The notes under the pieces: model-generated | The model's input: the letters and a program-made list of their open reading frames with translations, nothing else | Told to the model about the DNA's origin: nothing | Database searches by the model: none | Position numbers and translations under genes: made by a program | Source of the DNA: a virus | Reading direction: 5' to 3' (one strand) | Virus record (IMG/VR): IMGVR_UViG_3300024346_007022 | Coordinates: 1 to 23,992 of that record | DNA: 23,992 bases | Shown here: one piece after another, positions 4,715-22,867 of the stretch | Numbering within the stretch: the first letter of the stretch is position 1 | Layout of the letters: every line of letters begins with the position of its first letter

Positions 4715-4957
4715 ATGGCTTATTCAGTACGCAGGACATCGGCGCAACACACTAAAGAAACACGAGCAGCGGAGCAGTTAGGCAAACTCCTTACCCAAGA
4801 TTTTGCGGTAGACTTAGAAAGAGTAGGCTATTACTTAGTAAGAAACCTACCCTTAATAAATTACCATAGATTTGAGGTTGTCAGTTTGACAGCAATGGAA
4901 GAGTATGATAAACTTATGTTAGAGATGAAAGGACCCAACAATGGATTTCGCAGATAA
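4715..4957 (+). CDS. Hypothetical protein
   Basis: 80 residues, ATG 4715 with GAGGAGGGA just upstream. The N-terminus is basic and hydrophilic (RRTSAQHTKETRAAEQLGK), followed by a LERVGYYLVRNLPLINYHRFEVV segment and a helical tail. It overlaps the following gene by 17 bases. A small DNA- or RNA-binding role is possible from the basic N-terminus, but no motif shows it. Confidence 0.7.
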   Translation: MAYSVRRTSAQHTKETRAAEQLGKLLTQDFAVDLERVGYYLVRNLPLINYHRFEVVSLTAMEEYDKLMLEMKGPNNGFRR

Positions 4958-5246
4958 AACAGGAGTTCTTGCCCAACTGTGGCTAGACTTCCGTGAGGAT
5001 GAAAAGTTTGAAGCATTTGTAGACTACAATGACATTGGTTTGCCAATGGCATACTATGTGGCACAAGGTTTGGTAAAAGACCTAACGCCACTTGGTGAGC
5101 AGTACATTGAGGAATCATTCCGAATGCTAATAGAATTACTAAACATTACAGAGGATGACATTTCAATCCTGCCTGACCAAAACCTAGGAGCAATCTTAGT
5201 CTTTGCTTACAATAAAAAGAAGGCTAACGAAGCACAAGAGGAATAA
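4941..5246 (+). CDS. Conserved phage hypothetical protein
   Basis: 101 residues, ATG 4941 with AAAGGA upstream, within the end of the previous gene. The N-terminal LAQLWLDFREDEKFEAFV and YNDIGLPMAYYVAQGLV segments (about residues 10-46) match, from memory, a small all-helical protein seen in many actinobacterial and other phages without a known role. A conserved-looking LLNITEDD follows at about 74-81. The downstream 219 bases to the next gene hold a GC-rich hairpin without T run (5260-5283) and the first CAAACC and ATTACGA motifs. Confidence 0.75.
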   Translation: MDFADKTGVLAQLWLDFREDEKFEAFVDYNDIGLPMAYYVAQGLVKDLTPLGEQYIEESFRMLIELLNITEDDISILPDQNLGAILVFAYNKKKANEAQEE

Positions 5247-5430
5247 ACTAATCAGTCATGGGTGGGGGCCTTGCGCCCCTGCCTTGGGCTGGCTGGACGT
5301 CAAATCATATCAAATCGGACATATCAGACAAACCACATTTCCTCAAAACTTTATTACGAAACCTATAAAATTTTCCCAGATTGTACCAAATATTGATTAC
5401 GATGTCAAACCTTCTTTCCCCAAACCATGT

Positions 5431-5459
5431 TTGCCAAACCTTTATATCGGGTGTATAAT
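5431..5459 (+). promoter_or_regulatory. Leaderless-type promoter for the 5466 gene
   Basis: TTGCCA (5431-5436), 17 bases, TATAAT (5454-5459), six bases, ATG 5466. One CAAACC hexamer (5435-5440) overlaps the end of the -35 box. Confidence 0.8.
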
Positions 5460-5465
5460 GATATT

Positions 5466-5696
5466 ATGAGTCCAAGACACTTTGCAGCATATGCTAAAAG
5501 AAATCCAAAACAATATCAGGCATTCTCTGATTCTATGTGGAACTCCTTTGTTAGTGTTACCCATGCTATAGGTTTGTCTAACTATTTTTCTTTCTCCCCG
5601 CCGTTTTTGGACGGGCTTGATCCAGAGGCGATTGGCCGCGAACTTGGCGCGGTATATAACGAATCAACCAAAGAAGAAGAAACTCCTATAGTATAA
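5466..5696 (+). CDS. Small hypothetical protein beside the origin-like region
   Basis: 76 residues. An upstream in-frame ATG exists at 5427, but the promoter architecture selects ATG 5466. The sequence starts MSPRHFAAYAKRNPKQYQAF, basic and aromatic, followed by a Phe/Pro-rich FSFSPPFLDGLDPEAIGRELG segment and an acidic tail. It lies directly upstream of the repeat-rich 5697-6182 region, so a role in controlling it is conceivable, but no DNA-binding motif is evident. Confidence 0.65.
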   Translation: MSPRHFAAYAKRNPKQYQAFSDSMWNSFVSVTHAIGLSNYFSFSPPFLDGLDPEAIGRELGAVYNESTKEEETPIV

Positions 5697-5773
5697 ACAT
5701 ACCAAACCTTTTATCCTGGTTTGTAAAGTTTTTTAAAACTTTTTAAAAAAAAGATTACGAAATTCGAATAAAT

Positions 5774-5797
5774 TTCCCTGAATTTGGGGATTTTTTT
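5774..5797 (+). terminator. Terminator downstream of the 5466 gene
   Basis: TTCCC pairs with GGGGA (one G-U) around a 7-base loop, followed directly by seven T (5791-5797). It would also insulate the origin-like region from upstream transcription. Confidence 0.6.
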
Positions 5798-5823
5798 ATG
5801 GGCAAAATCATGCATATCAGGAC

Positions 5824-5852
5824 TTGACAAACCAAGGTTTTGCATGTATAAT
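5824..5852 (+). promoter_or_regulatory. Orphan consensus promoter in the origin-like region
   Basis: Perfect TTGACA (5824-5829), 17 bases, perfect TATAAT (5847-5852). Transcription would start near 5859 and run across the three direct repeats toward the DnaA boxes. The first ATG (5875) gives only nine codons, so an untranslated or primer-like RNA is possible. Confidence 0.7.
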
Positions 5853-5870
5853 GCCCAAACCTTACAATGG

Positions 5871-5937
5871 GATATGAGGTTTGACAATATGGGGCATATG
5901 TGATATGAGGTTTGAAGGTTTGGGGATATGAGGTTTG
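5871..5937 (+). repeat. Three direct repeats GATATGAGGTTTG
   Basis: Identical 13-base copies at 5871-5883, 5902-5914 and 5925-5937, with start-to-start distances of 31 and 23 bases. Each includes one GGTTTG. The first copy leads into TTGACA at 5881-5886, 17 bases before TATGAG of the second copy, so copies also resemble degenerate promoter elements. Iteron-like or operator-like. Confidence 0.75.
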
Positions 5938-6042
5938 GCCCCAGGCATTACGAAGCCCCTCTATAAAAGCGCTCCCTACTCCACTATCCTCCACAACACT
6001 CCACTTCTACTCTGTCTAATAATATAATCAGTAAGATCTATC

Positions 6043-6162
6043 TGTGGATAAACCTGTGGATAAGTATTACGAAAGGTACATTCTTAACCCTATTTCCTAT
6101 TCAAATGTACCTTAACTGACCAATAGGTACATTGTGGATAACTATTGTTGACATGTGGATAA
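6043..6162 (+). other. Four perfect DnaA boxes
   Basis: TGTGGATAA (reverse complement of the DnaA box TTATCCACA) occurs at 6043-6051, 6055-6063, 6133-6141 and 6154-6162, all in the same orientation. They form two close pairs with start-to-start distances of 12 and 21 bases. The last box directly follows a -35 hexamer, in the spacer of the 6183 promoter. Confidence 0.8.
6073..6133. repeat. Inverted repeat AAGGTACATT plus a third arm
   Basis: AAGGTACATT (6073-6082) and AATGTACCTT (6104-6113) form a perfect 10-bp inverted repeat with a 21-base spacer. AGGTACATT recurs at 6125-6133, where its last base is the first base of the third DnaA box. The set lies exactly between the two DnaA box pairs. 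Confidence 0.7.
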
Positions 6163-6176
6163 CTTTGTGATATGAT
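6148..6176 (+). promoter_or_regulatory. Leaderless-type promoter containing a DnaA box
   Basis: TTGACA (6148-6153), 17 bases, TATGAT (6171-6176), six bases, ATG 6183. The fourth DnaA box fills the first nine bases of the spacer, so DnaA and RNA polymerase would compete here. Confidence 0.75.
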
Positions 6177-6182
6177 GGATAT

Positions 6183-6323
6183 ATGAAACTAAACTATGGC
6201 ACTATGACCTCCAATTACTCTATTGGGGTATATCTGCATAACTGGGGTTATCCGATCAAACACCAATGGGAAATTGGTTTGTATCTTTTTAAGTGGTATG
6301 TGGGAATAGACTTCTTCAAATGA
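6183..6323 (+). CDS. Small aromatic hypothetical protein
   Basis: 46 residues, first gene of a three-gene chain downstream of the DnaA boxes. Leaderless start at ATG 6183. The sequence is rich in Tyr and Trp (YLHNWGYPIKHQWEIGLYLF, WYVGIDFF) without an obvious membrane helix. Its stop overlaps the next start by ATGA. Not recognised. Confidence 0.6.
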   Translation: MKLNYGTMTSNYSIGVYLHNWGYPIKHQWEIGLYLFKWYVGIDFFK

Positions 6324-6451
6324 CATGTACAAAATATGGATGCAACTATGAACTAGACCTTGATGGTCAAGTAACCTGTACTGTATGTGGGGCTATGGAT
6401 GATGACAAGCAGCCTGTGGATATCTTTGAGTTCCAGGTGGATTTCGAATGA
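6320..6451 (+). CDS. Zinc-ribbon mini-protein
   Basis: 43 residues starting at the ATGA overlap with the previous gene. Cys at residues 3 and 8, then CTVC at about 20-23, followed by an acidic tail (MDDDKQPVDIFEFQVDFE). This is the shape of a one-knuckle zinc ribbon. It overlaps the next gene by ATGA. Role unknown. Confidence 0.6.
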   Translation: MTCTKYGCNYELDLDGQVTCTVCGAMDDDKQPVDIFEFQVDFE

Positions 6452-6534
6452 AACCTTTTCTTATCATACTTTTAGGACTATTCATCTTTCTAAACTATAT
6501 GGCCTATCTACAACAAATCCGTATGACTGGATGA
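6448..6534 (+). CDS. Single-pass membrane mini-protein
   Basis: 28 residues, start overlapping the previous stop. After MKPF comes a hydrophobic run (LIILLGLFIFLNYMAYL) long enough to cross the membrane, then a short polar end. Could be a small membrane-acting phage peptide; nothing identifies its target. Its stop lies just before the -35 region of the next promoter. Confidence 0.5.
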   Translation: MKPFLIILLGLFIFLNYMAYLQQIRMTG

Positions 6535-6563
6535 TGACATGACAAACCCTAATGTGATACAAT
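6534..6563 (+). promoter_or_regulatory. Leaderless-type promoter for the 6570 gene
   Basis: ATGACA (6534-6539), 18 bases, TACAAT (6558-6563), six bases, ATG 6570. Confidence 0.6.
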
Positions 6564-6569
6564 AGTCCA

Positions 6570-6851
6570 ATGAGTGATCTAATAACTGGAGATTGGGAAG
6601 CGTTCAAATCTTCATGCCAAGTTGTATTTGAAAACCCTAATCCTAATTGTGGTTATGTCGGACCAGTAGGTTTGTGTGGCATATGTTCTGCTTTAGTTCT
6701 TATGAGTGATACTACACTTGGCTCACATTGGAATTGGCACTATACACACTACGCAAACCACTCAATTTTTGCACCACATTGCCACTCTCCTGTAACTGGA
6801 CTAGTAGTAGGATTACCAGATGGTCCTGGTTGGGATAAGGCATTCGGATAA
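6570..6851 (+). CDS. Cys/His-rich hypothetical protein
   Basis: 93 residues with a leaderless start. Cys occurs at positions 16, 27, 36 and 39 (the last two as CGIC), followed by an unusual His cluster: HWNWHYTHYANH at about 53-64 and HCHSP at about 70-74. The Cys and His pattern suggests a bound metal such as zinc. It ends 2 bases before the next ATG. I do not recognise the family. Confidence 0.65.
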   Translation: MSDLITGDWEAFKSSCQVVFENPNPNCGYVGPVGLCGICSALVLMSDTTLGSHWNWHYTHYANHSIFAPHCHSPVTGLVVGLPDGPGWDKAFG

Positions 6852-6853
6852 AA

Positions 6854-7003
6854 ATGGATAAATTTCAGTCCTCTTGGAGCCTATATGCCAATAAGATTGA
6901 TTCTTATAAGGTAGCCTGTAGCCAATGTAATCAACTATATGTAAAGGCTAATGATGAGCCCTTTATATGTCTTACTTGTACTACTAATAAACGATTACGA
7001 TAG
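6854..7003 (+). CDS. Zinc-ribbon mini-protein
   Basis: 49 residues; ATG 6854 follows the previous stop by two bases. CSQC (about residues 22-25) and CLTC (about 39-42) form a classic zinc ribbon. Its end overlaps the opposite-strand GIY-YIG gene by 9 bases, and the overlap carries one ATTACGA motif (6994-7000). Not recognised beyond the zinc ribbon. Confidence 0.65.
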   Translation: MDKFQSSWSLYANKIDSYKVACSQCNQLYVKANDEPFICLTCTTNKRLR

Positions 7004-7309
7004 GTCCTTTATAGCCTTATTGACCATACGGATCAAACCTCGTCTAGTCACTTTAGACGCATCAAATGTCTCCGTATAACCCCCTTGTGGCATATCTTCC
7101 TTACTGAGGTAATGGCCATATCTCTTAGTAAGGGTTTGTACTACTAGGGATTCTATGTATCTTGCTTGATCCCGTTCGGAAAATGCCCAATACTTGATCA
7201 ATATCCAACCCTTGGTCCTATGGCTTGCAAACCTTCTACCAGACACATCTGATATACCCACCTTGATGGCCTTGTGTATAGGGCTGTAGAGTATGTAGAG
7301 TAGGGTCAT
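6995..7309 (-). CDS. GIY-YIG / T5orf172-like nuclease domain protein
   Basis: 104 residues. The start at 7309 lies six bases after a TATAAT box (leaderless). Motifs fit the T5orf172/Mug113 branch of the GIY-YIG superfamily: YILYSP near the start (residues 5-10), KVGIS (16-20), R at about 25-26, a helix with Glu (YIESLVVQTL, about 51-60), and GYTETF near residues 77-82. Such proteins are stand-alone nuclease-like domains in phages, sometimes mobile or involved in DNA processing. The short length matches single-domain members. It converges on the 6854 gene. Confidence 0.75.
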   Translation of the reverse strand: MTLLYILYSPIHKAIKVGISDVSGRRFASHRTKGWILIKYWAFSERDQARYIESLVVQTLTKRYGHYLSKEDMPQGGYTETFDASKVTRRGLIRMVNKAIKDLS

Positions 7310-9040: not shown

Positions 9041-9214
9041 ATGAGTATTGACGAAATGACATTAAGAGAAGAAATTGCAAGGGCTATTGAGTCAATTAAT
9101 ATTGAAGAATCTGTAACTAATGCTCTGGGTATGCGTATTCTTGCTGCCCAGATCGCACGGGGAGAAGATAACTATATGACAAACATATTTGAACAACAGG
9201 CTAATTTTGAGTGA
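9041..9214 (+). CDS. Small acidic helical protein
   Basis: 57 residues with a strong leaderless promoter. Acidic and helical (MTLREEIARAIESINIEESV, then MRILAAQIARGEDNYMTNIF). The promoter is close to consensus, so the protein may be abundant. Not recognised. Confidence 0.65.
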   Translation: MSIDEMTLREEIARAIESINIEESVTNALGMRILAAQIARGEDNYMTNIFEQQANFE

Positions 9215-9219
9215 TATGG

Positions 9220-9225
9220 TATGAT
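9220..9225 (+). promoter_or_regulatory. -10 box for the 9232 gene
   Basis: TATGAT six bases before ATG 9232; no good -35 is visible, so transcription may also come from upstream. Confidence 0.45.
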
Positions 9226-9231
9226 TAATAC

Positions 9232-9354
9232 ATGAAGTCTATATATAAGTGTGAAGAGTGTTTAACAGTAATTACAATAGAGACAGATGTACATGCTATG
9301 CCTGAGTCTATTATATGCCCTTGTGAAAAAGTAATGCCTTCTATTGGGGCCTAG
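9232..9354 (+). CDS. Zinc-ribbon mini-protein
   Basis: 40 residues: CEEC at 7-10 and CPC at about 28-30, in a short sequence beginning MKSIYK. Looks like a minimal zinc ribbon. The start lies six bases after TATGAT. Upstream of the ferredoxin gene with a 38-base gap. Function unknown. Confidence 0.6.
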   Translation: MKSIYKCEECLTVITIETDVHAMPESIICPCEKVMPSIGA

Positions 9355-9392
9355 TCATATTTTGATTTTAGTATTTATGAGGAATTCAATAA

Positions 9393-9632
9393 ATGACTTA
9401 TGTTATTACTGAAAACTGTATAGACAATATGGATAAGTCCTGCATGGATGAGTGTCCAGTTGACTGCATAAAGGTTGGCAAAAACATGCTTTTTATCGAC
9501 CCCAATGATTGTGTTGATTGCGGGGCGTGTTTACCTGTCTGCCCAGTAGATGCCATATACTATGAAGACGACTTACCAGATAACCTATTGCACTATAAAG
9601 AAATAAATAAAAAATTTTTTAATAAAGACTAA
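9393..9632 (+). CDS. fdxA: FdxA-type 7Fe ferredoxin
   Basis: 79 residues, a small electron carrier with one [3Fe-4S] and one [4Fe-4S] cluster. The eight Cys lie at 9, 17, 21, 25, 40, 43, 46 and 50. By alignment with the 7Fe family, C9, C17 and C50 hold the 3Fe cluster; C21, C40, C43 and C46 hold the 4Fe cluster; C25 matches the free Cys. The CVDCGACLPVCPVDAI block and MTYVI start match actinobacterial FdxA, which serves cytochrome P450s and other oxidoreductases. The protein is shorter than the host type, lacking the usual C-terminal tail. GAGGA lies upstream. The stop region overlaps the converging methyltransferase gene by 4 bases. Confidence 0.9.
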   Translation: MTYVITENCIDNMDKSCMDECPVDCIKVGKNMLFIDPNDCVDCGACLPVCPVDAIYYEDDLPDNLLHYKEINKKFFNKD

Positions 9633-10279
9633 ACTATCTTAATGTTATCTACATCTGGTGGAAGACCCCAGTTAATTATCTGGTAAAACTTTGACATTTC
9701 TGAAGGTGTGTAGTGATACTCTTTTGGAACATCAACAACATTTGGATCAACCCACCAATCTTCAAATTCTCCACCGCCTTTAATTTTTGCATTTTCAACA
9801 ACTAACTTATATCCAAAACTTTGTAATATTTCAATCTGTTCATTCTTTACCTTTTCAGAGTCATTTCCATTCTCTTTTCCTCTAAATATGTCATGTTCAA
9901 ATGTTATAACTGAAAATCTATATTCTTTTAATGGTAAAGCCTTTAAAATATTTAACGTAACCTCTGATGGGTCTGTGTCTAATTGTAAATAATCCACTTG
10001 CTTGGGCACATTATGTGCTAAAAACAACTCGCTATAATTAAATCCTGTTTGTGCGTCTCCAAGCAAACAAAGCGACTTTCTATTCTGATTGTATTCTTCT
10101 ACATATTCTGGCTGAACATCAAAACTAAGTCCACTCCAATTAAACTCAGATTCAAGCAAGAATGTGTTGCTGCAGGCTTTTGAATGGTATGCACCAAACT
10201 CTAAAAAGTATCCATTTCTTTTGTTATTTAGCATATCTAATACAAAAAGGTCCTGACCAGCCTGACTATAATAGTTCAT
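9629..10279 (-). CDS. FkbM-like SAM-dependent methyltransferase
   Basis: 216 residues. The frame extends to a GTG at 10294, but ATG 10279 lies exactly six bases after TATACT. The N-terminus has the FkbM-family SQAGQDLFVLDML element (residues 5-17), followed by the SAM-binding GYFLEFGAYHSKACSNT segment, WSGLSFDVQPEY, and a VDYLQLDTDPSE acidic loop. FkbM-type enzymes O-methylate sugars in glycans and antibiotics. It stands near two glycosyltransferases, so sugar methylation is likely. Length is typical. No membrane segment. Confidence 0.85.
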   Translation of the reverse strand: MNYYSQAGQDLFVLDMLNNKRNGYFLEFGAYHSKACSNTFLLESEFNWSGLSFDVQPEYVEEYNQNRKSLCLLGDAQTGFNYSELFLAHNVPKQVDYLQLDTDPSEVTLNILKALPLKEYRFSVITFEHDIFRGKENGNDSEKVKNEQIEILQSFGYKLVVENAKIKGGGEFEDWWVDPNVVDVPKEYHYTPSEMSKFYQIINWGLPPDVDNIKIV

Positions 10280-16027: not shown

Positions 16028-16453
16028 CTACCTGATTTTGATTGTCTTAGGTTTTTTGTCTTCTGGAACAACACGATCTACATTAATATGTAGCATGCCG
16101 TCTTTAAGGTCTGCCCCAGTTACTTCCATATATTCTCCAAGGGCAAAAGATCGTGTAAACTTACGACTTGCTATACCTTTGTGAACTACTTCTGCATCTG
16201 TTACTTCTATAATCTCACCCTTAATAATTAATGTTCCATTATCTACTGAAACATCAATATGTTCCTTTGAAAATCCTGCTACTGCAATAGATATAAGATA
16301 TGTATCTTCATCTAGTTTTAGGATGTCATAAGGAGGATATGACTGTGAATTTACTTTGTGTGCATTGTTTAGACGGGCTAAGTCTCTATTAAAGCCAATA
16401 AAAAAAGGATCATTGAATAGATCCATTGCGAAGTTTGTTGCGTTCATGTGCAT
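16028..16453 (-). CDS. Hsp20 / IbpA-type small heat shock protein
   Basis: 141 residues, ATP-independent holdase chaperone that binds unfolding proteins. The N-terminus DPFFIGFNRDLARL (about 15-28) and the alpha-crystallin domain from about 40 to 130 are clear: PPYDIL, the GFSKEHIDVSV strand, GTLIIKGE, GIASRKFTRSFAL and GADLKDGMLHI. The end PEDKKPKTIKI contains the I-x-I anchor. The length matches IbpA. The start at 16453 has GGGGA upstream; a second ATG two codons later is possible. A -10 lies about 50 bases upstream. Phage Hsp20 genes are known in cyanophages and some other groups. Confidence 0.93.
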   Translation of the reverse strand: MHMNATNFAMDLFNDPFFIGFNRDLARLNNAHKVNSQSYPPYDILKLDEDTYLISIAVAGFSKEHIDVSVDNGTLIIKGEIIEVTDAEVVHKGIASRKFTRSFALGEYMEVTGADLKDGMLHINVDRVVPEDKKPKTIKIR

Positions 16454-19380: not shown

Positions 19381-19662
19381 TTACTCCATAACTAAGGACT
19401 GCCAAGTTTCAGCCCAGACTTGTTTTGTTTTATGATTGTTAAACTCTCTTGAAACAGATCCTGTATCAAGATAAACTCCACCCCAGACTCCCCACTCTTT
19501 TTGTGAGATTCCTACTGCAAAGCACTGTGTTCTAACAGAACAGCCAGAGCAAAGTTTATCTATTGCTGGCCTTAGACTTTCATCTTCTTCGTATTTATCA
19601 AAAAATAAATTTGTATCATACTCAAAGCATGCAGCCTTATCTTTCCATTCTTGTCTATTCAT
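19381..19662 (-). CDS. WhiB-family [4Fe-4S] transcription factor
   Basis: 93 residues, an actinobacteria-specific regulator that carries a [4Fe-4S] cluster and contacts the sigma factor of RNA polymerase. Cluster Cys are 12, 38, 41 and 47 (C-x2-C-x5-C), followed by GVWGGVY (58-64), the signature G-V/I-W-G-G turn. The basic C-terminal region is short (HKTKQ), so DNA contact may be weak. Phage WhiB proteins such as that of TM4 can block host WhiB2; the same is possible here. It starts one base after the stop of the 19664 gene. Confidence 0.95.
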   Translation of the reverse strand: MNRQEWKDKAACFEYDTNLFFDKYEEDESLRPAIDKLCSGCSVRTQCFAVGISQKEWGVWGGVYLDTGSVSREFNNHKTKQVWAETWQSLVME

Positions 19663-20969: not shown

Positions 20970-21183
20970 GGATTCTCCAGTTCATAGTTTTTGGTCCTTG
21001 CTTAATTAAACTAAACATATGATGTTTATATTGTTCTGTAAGTTCTGCATACAATTCAGGATGAACCTCTTCAAGTTTATCAGTAATAGAATAAGTCAAC
21101 TCTCCACGCTCATCGATTCCAGCCATCTGAATTGCACCCTGCATAATAAGATGCTCAATCAATGCTTCATTTTTAAGATTCAT
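20962..21183 (-). CDS. Tandem paralog B, hypothetical
   Basis: 73 residues: ALIEHLIMQGAIQMAGIDER, GELTYSITDKLEEVHPELYA, and a MFSLIKQG end. This matches paralog A but lacks its C-terminal extension. The start at 21183 lies 11 bases inside the thioredoxin gene's end. The helix-turn pattern could be a small protein-protein adaptor. Function unknown. Confidence 0.7.
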   Translation of the reverse strand: MNLKNEALIEHLIMQGAIQMAGIDERGELTYSITDKLEEVHPELYAELTEQYKHHMFSLIKQGPKTMNWRIRG

Positions 21184-21433
21184 TTAAGTCTACAAAATCT
21201 AAAAAGTCTTGCTTAGTCTTTGCACCATTCATTCTTTTTACCTCAGATCCATCTTTAATCAAAAGATATGTTGGAATAGACTTTATTCCAAATTCTTGAA
21301 CAAGTTCTATTTCAGTATCTGCATCAATAAAAATAAAATCTATAACGCCTTCACGCTTAAGTTCTTCTGCTACTGGCCTTGTTCTTTGACATGGATTGCA
21401 CCACTCTGCAGTAAAGTATAAAACATGGGTCAC
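21173..21433 (-). CDS. Thioredoxin-like protein
   Basis: 86 residues, a thiol-disulphide oxidoreductase or reductant for other phage enzymes. The active site is W-C-N-P-C (Cys12, Cys15), and cis-Pro lies in KSIPTYLL (Pro54). Strand VLYFTAEW and FIFIDADTE complete a compact thioredoxin fold without the N-terminal strand, as in phage and glutaredoxin-like short forms. CNPC differs from the classical CGPC, so the redox potential may differ. It overlaps the nuclease gene by 4 bases, indicating coupling. Confidence 0.92.
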   Translation of the reverse strand: MTHVLYFTAEWCNPCQRTRPVAEELKREGVIDFIFIDADTEIELVQEFGIKSIPTYLLIKDGSEVKRMNGAKTKQDFLDFVDLNES

Positions 21434-22040: not shown

Positions 22041-22149
22041 CTTTATCCTCAGCAAAAAGTCTTTCTTCTGCTTCGTTCATTGATTTGCCAGCATTTTCCA
22101 GTTGTTTAAAGACCCATTTGCTTGCGTTTTTCAGTAGCCGAAATAGCAT
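22027..22149 (-). CDS. Small charged hypothetical protein bridging two genes
   Basis: 40 residues from ATG 22149, inside the end of the kinase-nucleotidyltransferase gene (44-base overlap), ending 14 bases inside the DUF2061 gene. Basic helix first (MLFRLLKNASKWVFKQLENA), then an acidic end (MNEAEERLFAEDKDERK). GGGGG upstream could serve as a ribosome site. It fills an otherwise unexplained gap between two genes; charge segregation suggests a real short helical peptide. Confidence 0.55.
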   Translation of the reverse strand: MLFRLLKNASKWVFKQLENAGKSMNEAEERLFAEDKDERK

Positions 22150-22867
22150 GAATGTCTGCCCCCAAATCTACTTGTTCAATTTTATATCCTACATCACGAC
22201 CATATACAATGTTGGTAATGTTAGGTAGTCTTAGTACTAATGCCCCATCCATAAAGTCGTCCTTGGCAATATATTCTTTTACCTGATCAAACTTAAGGGG
22301 ATCCTTTTCGCTTGTATTGTAGGTATTACGGACTCCAAGAAGCACTTGGTCAGTTCTATTGCCAGCCTCTTTGTAAAGGGCGTGGTGGCCCTCGTGCCAA
22401 GGCTGATACCTACCCAGCATAAGAGTTGTAGGAGCAGACCAATCATGAAGACCAAACTGCTTAATGATTTCTGTTGCCTTTTCATTTGCATCCCGCTCAT
22501 GACTAATAAAAGCCATATCAAAATTGCTGGGGACTTCAAACATTTTATTAGTATCTTCAAATCTACTTTCTTCAATTGTTTCCATATAAATTAAAATATC
22601 TGGCTTGCCAAATGCTACACGAGTTAAATCTGTTGGACATATAAAATCCACGATTACTGGCGCTACACCCTGCTTAGAGATAAGTCTTGCTATTTCTCCC
22701 ATGCGTCGTGCTTGTTCAATTCTATCTTCAGGGCTAAACCCTAAATCTGAATTTACAGTTGCACGGACTTCATCTGCATTAAGGTGGATAGCATTAATAC
22801 GCTCTTTTAGGGCTTTTGCTAATTCTGTTTTACCAGAACCAGGTAGGCCAATAATCTGAATAATCAT
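22106..22867 (-). CDS. CysC-like kinase fused to NMNAT-like nucleotidyltransferase
   Basis: 253 residues. Residues 1-130: P-loop GLPGSGKT (7-14), LNADEVRATVNSDLGFSPED and RIEQARRMGEIARL, which follow the pattern of adenylylsulfate kinase (CysC). Residues 147-253: GRYQPWHEGHHALY with HEGH at 158-161, and ISATEKR (242-248), the two signatures of NMN/cytidylyl-type adenylyltransferases. NadR has a similar pair of activities in the reverse order. The natural substrates are not visible: sulfate activation, NAD salvage or nucleotide modification are options. From memory, such fusions occur in other marine and freshwater phages. Confidence 0.85.
   Translation of the reverse strand: MIIQIIGLPGSGKTELAKALKERINAIHLNADEVRATVNSDLGFSPEDRIEQARRMGEIARLISKQGVAPVIVDFICPTDLTRVAFGKPDILIYMETIEESRFEDTNKMFEVPSNFDMAFISHERDANEKATEIIKQFGLHDWSAPTTLMLGRYQPWHEGHHALYKEAGNRTDQVLLGVRNTYNTSEKDPLKFDQVKEYIAKDDFMDGALVLRLPNITNIVYGRDVGYKIEQVDLGADIHAISATEKRKQMGL

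Follow-up and report, generated by a model that had tools for sequence, protein, structure and literature searches.

Iteron-type theta origins that carry DnaA boxes are known from phage P1 (oriR) and from pSC101. DnaA boxes also belong to the injection stop signal of phage T5, for which the work of Heusterspreute from 1987 is said to be the primary source. In the accessible part of a 2026 paper, this signal is described by repeats, palindromes and DnaA boxes (PMC13250531). As far as the accessible text of the respective sources goes, a DnaA-box origin was predicted for a lytic Pseudomonas phage (PMC11512268), the origins of mycobacterial prophages are RepA- or RNA-based, with DnaA unmentioned in that portion of the source (PMC7157519), and the isolated Nanopelagicales phages of about 39 kb belong to a different group (PMC10202952). 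Overall, we found little relevant literature on DnaA boxes at phage origins. Neither for the Stanwilliamsviridae nor for large actinophages with their own DnaE replisome was a described origin found in the literature searched, most subscription literature being outside the reach of that search.

Here, we analysed the virus record IMGVR_UViG_3300024346_007022 over its full length of 23,992 bases (the window), which is a fragment of the genome of an uncultured phage. We conclude that a gene-free stretch in this window is a strongly conserved control site and probably the start point of DNA copying. By protein similarity, the phage is related to the Stanwilliamsviridae, a family of Streptomyces phages. 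Its DUF932 protein shows 51-53% identity to those of the Karimac/Jay2Jay group of this family, and a 114-kb relative (contig G001) encodes a DnaE that is 55% identical, over 100%, to the DnaE of Wakanda and BillNye, together with a DnaB-like helicase, a DnaG-like primase and RecA. Since a WhiB gene is present in the window and the relatives are Streptomyces phages, the host is very likely actinobacterial, in agreement with the sequence-only reading, which had assigned the DNA to an actinobacterial phage. One relative sits in a reservoir MAG, which may hint at a freshwater source of the window phage.

Host-like genes of the window encode a 4Fe-4S ferredoxin (9393-9632), Hsp20 (16028-16453), WhiB (19381-19662), a thioredoxin-like protein (21173-21433, identified by eye only) and an APS-kinase-like protein (22106-22867). 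GC content drops to 0.27-0.34 between 11000 and 15200, compared to 0.36-0.44 in most of 1-9 kb. This low-GC run includes a nucleotidyltransferase gene and was possibly acquired.

Relatives were gathered via two window proteins, resulting in 18 loci by the gene at 4941-5246 and 80 loci by the DUF932 gene. A set of 57 sites was obtained by dereplicating 78 full-flank sites, all of which had been selected with a core-plus-box pattern that allowed up to 2 mismatches; this set is biased toward boxes, as a core next to a box was the selection criterion. The features of the locus are the following (window positions).

5329..5937, both orientations: iteron-like GGTTTG/CAAACC array by motif count, with copies at 5329, 5406, 5421, 5435, 5571, 5703, 5718, 5828, 5856, 5878, 5909, 5917 and 5932
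5697..6182, no strand: gene-free stretch that contains the entire element; the preceding ORF ends at 5696 and the following one, of 45 aa, starts at 6183
5724..5783, no strand: AT-rich patch of lowest stability, a candidate for DNA unwinding, which precedes the core by about 300 bp
5824..5852, plus strand: consensus promoter TTGACA-17-TATAAT directed toward the boxes, 12/12 consensus matches
5871..5937, plus strand: three copies of the 13-mer GATATGAGGTTTG (5871, 5902, 5925)
5947..5953, plus strand: ATTACGA motif, with other copies at 5353, 5396, 5754 and 6066, all on the plus strand
5961..6016, plus strand: CTATAAAAGCGCTC, then a C-rich, G-poor CTCCACT-repeat tract, conserved in ungapped columns from about -70 to -18 across the 57 sites
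6018..6037, plus strand: AT-rich segment ending in the core ATCAGTAAGAT (6027-6037), near-invariant and kept without boxes
6043..6051, plus strand: DnaA box 1, TGTGGATAA, exact match
6055..6063, plus strand: DnaA box 2, TGTGGATAA, exact match, 12 bp after box 1
6073-6082 / 6104-6113, no strand: perfect 10-bp inverted repeat between the box pairs
6133..6141, plus strand: DnaA box 3, TGTGGATAA, exact match
6154..6162, plus strand: DnaA box 4, TGTGGATAA, exact match
6148..6176, plus strand: promoter-like TTGACA-17-TATGAT by sequence match, its spacer holding DnaA box 4

The sequence-only reading had proposed a DnaA-dependent phage replication origin from four identical same-strand boxes within 486 gene-free bases, and these were recovered at 6043, 6055, 6133 and 6154. 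They are the only copies of TGTGGATAA in the window, and their number is far above chance, as four copies were reached in 0 of 100 dinucleotide shuffles (mean 0.42). The many GGTTTG/CAAACC hexamers noted in the same reading are likewise there, with 8 copies in 5697-6182 and 34 in the window, 26 of which fall within 5.0-8.0 kb. Two further elements of that reading are present but proved not to be conserved: the inverted repeat between the box pairs was found at 2/57 sites only, and the three identical 13-base repeats occur as three copies at a single site, with zero copies of GATATGAGGTTTG at 48/57. The AT-rich patch, also reported before, has counterparts in six long relatives, at 268-327 bp upstream of the core in all seven sequences. 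It is unexceptional, as each of these sequences contains 16-54 patches of 60 bp that are just as weak.

What is conserved among the relatives is the order of the remaining parts. Across the 57 dereplicated sites, a TATAAAAGCGCTC segment, the CTCCACT tract, AT-rich DNA and ATCAGTAA[G/C]AT follow one another without gaps, and the usual arrangement runs from the GGTTTG array through the C-rich tract and the almost invariant ATCAGTAA[G/C]AT to a tandem box pair and a third box. Conservation of box number and spacing in related phages had been suggested as a check, and here the spacing held while the number of four did not. The spacing between boxes 1 and 2 is 11 bp at 31 sites and 12 bp at 21, which together make up 52 of the 55 sites that have two or more boxes, and the third box follows 32-34 bp further on at 33 sites; three boxes were counted at 44 of the 57 sites and four at only 2. 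An opposite-strand box within 200 bp was found at 0/57 sites. In the 420 bp upstream of the core, GGTTTG occurs on average 7.5 times (range 2-11, 57 sites), compared to 0.17 expected from base composition; the repeats are thus strongly enriched, but they are irregularly spaced and in both orientations. The TTACGA motif shows a pronounced strand bias at the relatives' sites (121 on the plus versus 3 on the minus strand). In the window, ATTACGA has 10 copies, 9 of them on the plus strand between 5353 and 8487. In all six long contigs (98-114 kb), the core is single-copy, and the kilobase with the highest density of GGTTTG (9-14 copies) coincides with it or adjoins it.

The upstream gene is the same in 47/57 loci, whereas the downstream genes belong to many families and lie on both strands. 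Therefore, we rejected the possibility that the element serves as the promoter of a single gene. A wider role in transcription, in which the locus would be a control hub with several promoters set by GGTTTG-binding proteins and, where present, by box-bound DnaA, the other box pairs upstream of early genes acting likewise, appears unlikely to us. Such a hub would account for the 12 promoter-like sites in 5250-6600 (4.7 expected), for the box inside a promoter-like spacer at 9/57 sites and for the frequent overlap of GGTTTG with TTGACA (GGTTTGACA, 48/57 sites); TATAATGCCC at the consensus promoter is common to 30/57 sites. It is harder to reconcile with downstream genes that vary, with a locus that occurs once per genome and with a longest conserved block that is not a promoter consensus. 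Further intergenic box pairs near the DUF932 gene, within the same 10-13 kb segment, would also fit a hub, and a single origin leaves them unexplained.

These extra TGTGGATAA pairs, 11-13 bp apart (L147:7884-7904, L182:1347-1366, L192:7873-7893 and others), often lie beside TGTGA/TCACA palindrome-like sequences. Pairs of TGTGGATAA at 12-bp steps are common in many kinds of viral contig, and 118 of the 131 tandem pairs in the first 120 loci were without the ATCAGTAA core; some of these 118 (e.g., L047) come from relatives of the window group, hence they do not all represent unrelated viruses. On the right flank of the site, the window encodes a small endonuclease-like protein (6995-7309, PHROG 681). 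Similar proteins are encoded just downstream of the site in 17/57 loci, so that the right flank looks insertion-prone. Searching bacterial genome contigs with the core-plus-box pattern gave two matches. One of these (L273, CANGYR010000020.1) is a phage site of the same kind that is filed under a Chitinophagaceae MAG, apparently by a binning error, while the other (L274) was rejected as a genuine site and looks like a chance match.

A comparable cluster is found in isolated phages. Each of ten isolates, nine from the Boydwoodruffvirinae and Loccivirinae and the unclassified DekoNeimoidia, has one box cluster per genome, with two exact boxes within 25 bp in nine of them and one exact plus one 1-mismatch box in Paradiddles. 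According to the three gene tables examined (Karimac, NootNoot and Wakanda), the cluster is situated in a gene-free stretch of about 1.3-1.4 kb. The annotation of BillNye includes a small gene that extends to the first box. As in the window, the Stanwilliamsviridae isolates thus have one cluster in or beside a gene-free stretch with the TTACGA motif nearby, and Karimac has the same order relative to the DUF932/DUF945 gene. The TTACGA motif recurs in Streptomyces phages among the matches listed, and TCGTAAA is among the commonest 7-mers near the boxes of Boydwoodruffvirinae isolates. The boxes of the Boydwoodruffvirinae are divergent, whereas those of the window are in tandem, and the second repeat of the isolates is lineage-specific, with TATAAGACA, ATATAC or CAGGTCA replacing GGTTTG.

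No match to the Bac_DnaA_C domain was obtained in 15 phage records, so that a protein binding the boxes would have to come from the host. According to the accessible part of one study, TTGTCCACA is the high-affinity box of Streptomyces coelicolor and TTATCCACA that of E. coli and Bacillus subtilis (PMC4285127). The cluster boxes of the Streptomyces phages are TTATCCACA, with TTGTCCACA copies in Karimac and BillNye being single and located elsewhere. We take the use of TTATCCACA as a mild point against a tuned use of host DnaA, or as a sign of a box that may serve several hosts.

We also investigated whether the rest of the element occurs by itself, using a scan for the C-rich tract plus ATCAGTAASAT that ignored the boxes. 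It returned 119 stretches, 80 of which were listed; five of these were not real sites (no GGTTTG) and one was skipped at a contig end, leaving 74. Among these listed matches, 58 sites have at least one box and 16 have none. Four box-less sites inspected in full all kept the GGTTTG array, the C-rich tract and the core. No replacement 9-mer for the box was seen in 21 box-less loci; two of the box-less loci (L399 and L401) carry TGTGAACAA, and TATCAAACC-type repeats are common in box-less sites. Box density in the surroundings was 0.155 per kb upstream of boxed sites and 0.075 per kb upstream of box-less sites, and downstream 0.066 per kb and 0, respectively.

A tree of the upstream protein, built from those 124 of 132 rows that had the gene (20 of the 124 box-less, in a set biased toward boxes), required 13 changes of the box label, at least 5 of them on well-supported branches, compared to 18.7 with shuffled labels; the tree is short of columns, and the change count is therefore rough. 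Because 16 of the 74 listed matches are box-less and the label flipped at least five times on the tree, we conclude that the DnaA boxes are, as far as these sequences tell, an optional add-on, gained and lost by lineages while the rest is kept. This weakens the earlier claim that the locus is DnaA-dependent. The sequence-only reading had named the absence of boxes in close relatives as evidence against it, and the outcome is mixed: the boxes are kept in most relatives and absent from those 16. With the remainder of the element fixed, the repeated gain and loss of its boxes would amount to a natural experiment on how phages are coupled to host replication initiation or become free of it.

With these observations, we propose with moderate confidence that this Stanwilliamsviridae-like actinophage has a single-copy site here that acts in cis and is most likely its replication origin, repeat-based and assisted by host DnaA. 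A phage or host protein would bind the GGTTTG array, host DnaA would bind the tandem boxes where they are present, and AT-rich DNA would open at the core (6018-6037), at the patch near 5724-5783, or at both. This would be followed by loading of the replisome proteins that the phage itself encodes (DnaB-like helicase, primase and DnaE polymerase), the boxes being helpful, not indispensable. Protein binding, unwinding and origin function at the site are what we infer from the following features. The single locus in 6/6 long contigs and the box cluster in 10/10 isolates point to an origin, as do the strong conservation without a fixed downstream gene, the order of repeats, C-rich tract, AT-rich core and boxes, a box spacing of about one helical turn, and a phage replisome (G001) without a detectable phage DnaA.

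Several results argue against an origin. Apart from the box-less sites and the unexceptional AT-rich patch, the Rep3 initiator (Rep3_N, PF01051) was found in 0/15 phage records, and the cluster boxes are not the high-affinity type of Streptomyces coelicolor, as given in the accessible part of PMC4285127. GC skew had been suggested as a further check; no minimum was found at the site, as the skew follows the coding strand in all six long contigs (a weak test for such phages), and we rejected it as support for the origin. Further, such boxes need not mark an origin, since the T5 injection stop signal has them as well. The earlier proposal of a phage replication origin is thus partly supported, by one conserved cluster per genome, whereas the skew is silent, the boxes are dispensable and a T5-like reading competes.

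The T5-like reading regards the locus as a checkpoint of DNA entry. In this view, the non-coding, repeat-rich block and its DnaA boxes would mark the inner boundary of the DNA that is transferred first, and entry would stop there and resume once early proteins have been synthesised. This checkpoint is the strongest rival to the origin reading and a serious one, although in itself we consider it improbable. In the T5 record AY543070, the injection stop signal is located at 9140-10149 in the left terminal repeat and contains two pairs of box-like 9-mers, all on the same strand and with a step of 12 bp within each pair (9437/9449 and 9498/9510). One of these four is exact and three have one mismatch; all exact T5 boxes are within the terminal repeats. 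For nine isolates, whose records appear to start at a genome end, we calculated a distance of about 7.4-12.7 kb between the site and the right end. NootNoot, Paradiddles and Karimac have the site just outside the terminal repeat, at a distance of about 60 bp (sizes of the repeat in these three from PMC5764925 and gene duplication). The distance to the repeat is about 720 bp in Jay2Jay and 5-6 kb in BillNye and Wakanda, whose terminal repeats are much shorter (about 2.3 and 1.8 kb, respectively). Therefore, adjacency to the repeat is not general. To our knowledge, no two-step DNA entry has been described for these phages.

The same distances bear on the idea that the locus is a packaging or terminus region recognised by terminase, with incidental boxes, which we regard as very improbable. 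It would agree with the location of the site in three isolates, where the physical end is about 60 bp away, and with the 10/118 contigs of relatives that begin 19-176 bp upstream of the core, compared to one that ends at most 200 bp downstream. These contig ends near the core are heterogeneous, however, and resemble assembly breaks in a conserved block, in Loccivirinae the terminal repeat is 5-6 kb from the site, and a fragment starting there and including the boxes would not equal the Karimac end. Rather than a physical genome end, the contig ends probably mark assembly breaks.

The origin reading can be combined with the checkpoint. One conserved non-coding block might unite both functions at the boundary of the DNA that enters first, with host DnaA boxes as a plug-in repeatedly gained and lost, perhaps with host changes; we put this forward as a quite improbable, speculative possibility. 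The locus represents a defined origin candidate in cultured phages such as Karimac and NootNoot, in which origin function, the use of host DnaA and a T5-like entry pause become testable.

Compared to P1 oriR and pSC101, the locus shares the order of short repeats, AT-rich DNA and tandem DnaA boxes, with host DnaA as a likely helper. It differs in that the repeats are 6-7 bp long, irregularly spaced and in both orientations, in that the 15 phage records contain no Rep3 gene, and in that about a fifth of the phage sites are box-less. With bacterial oriC it shares perfect DnaA boxes clustered beside AT-rich DNA, whereas the phage lacks a dnaA domain (15 records), its boxes are dispensable and the gene context is viral. 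T5 belongs to an unrelated phage family, its injection stop signal is inside the terminal repeat, and three of its four boxes are mismatched. Both loci are long, non-coding, repeat-rich blocks in which same-strand box pairs have a 12-bp step, and in some isolates a long terminal repeat is close by, as in T5. If the combined function of origin and checkpoint were true, the T5 signal would be remotely parallel to it in function, host DnaA being the protein that docks at both.
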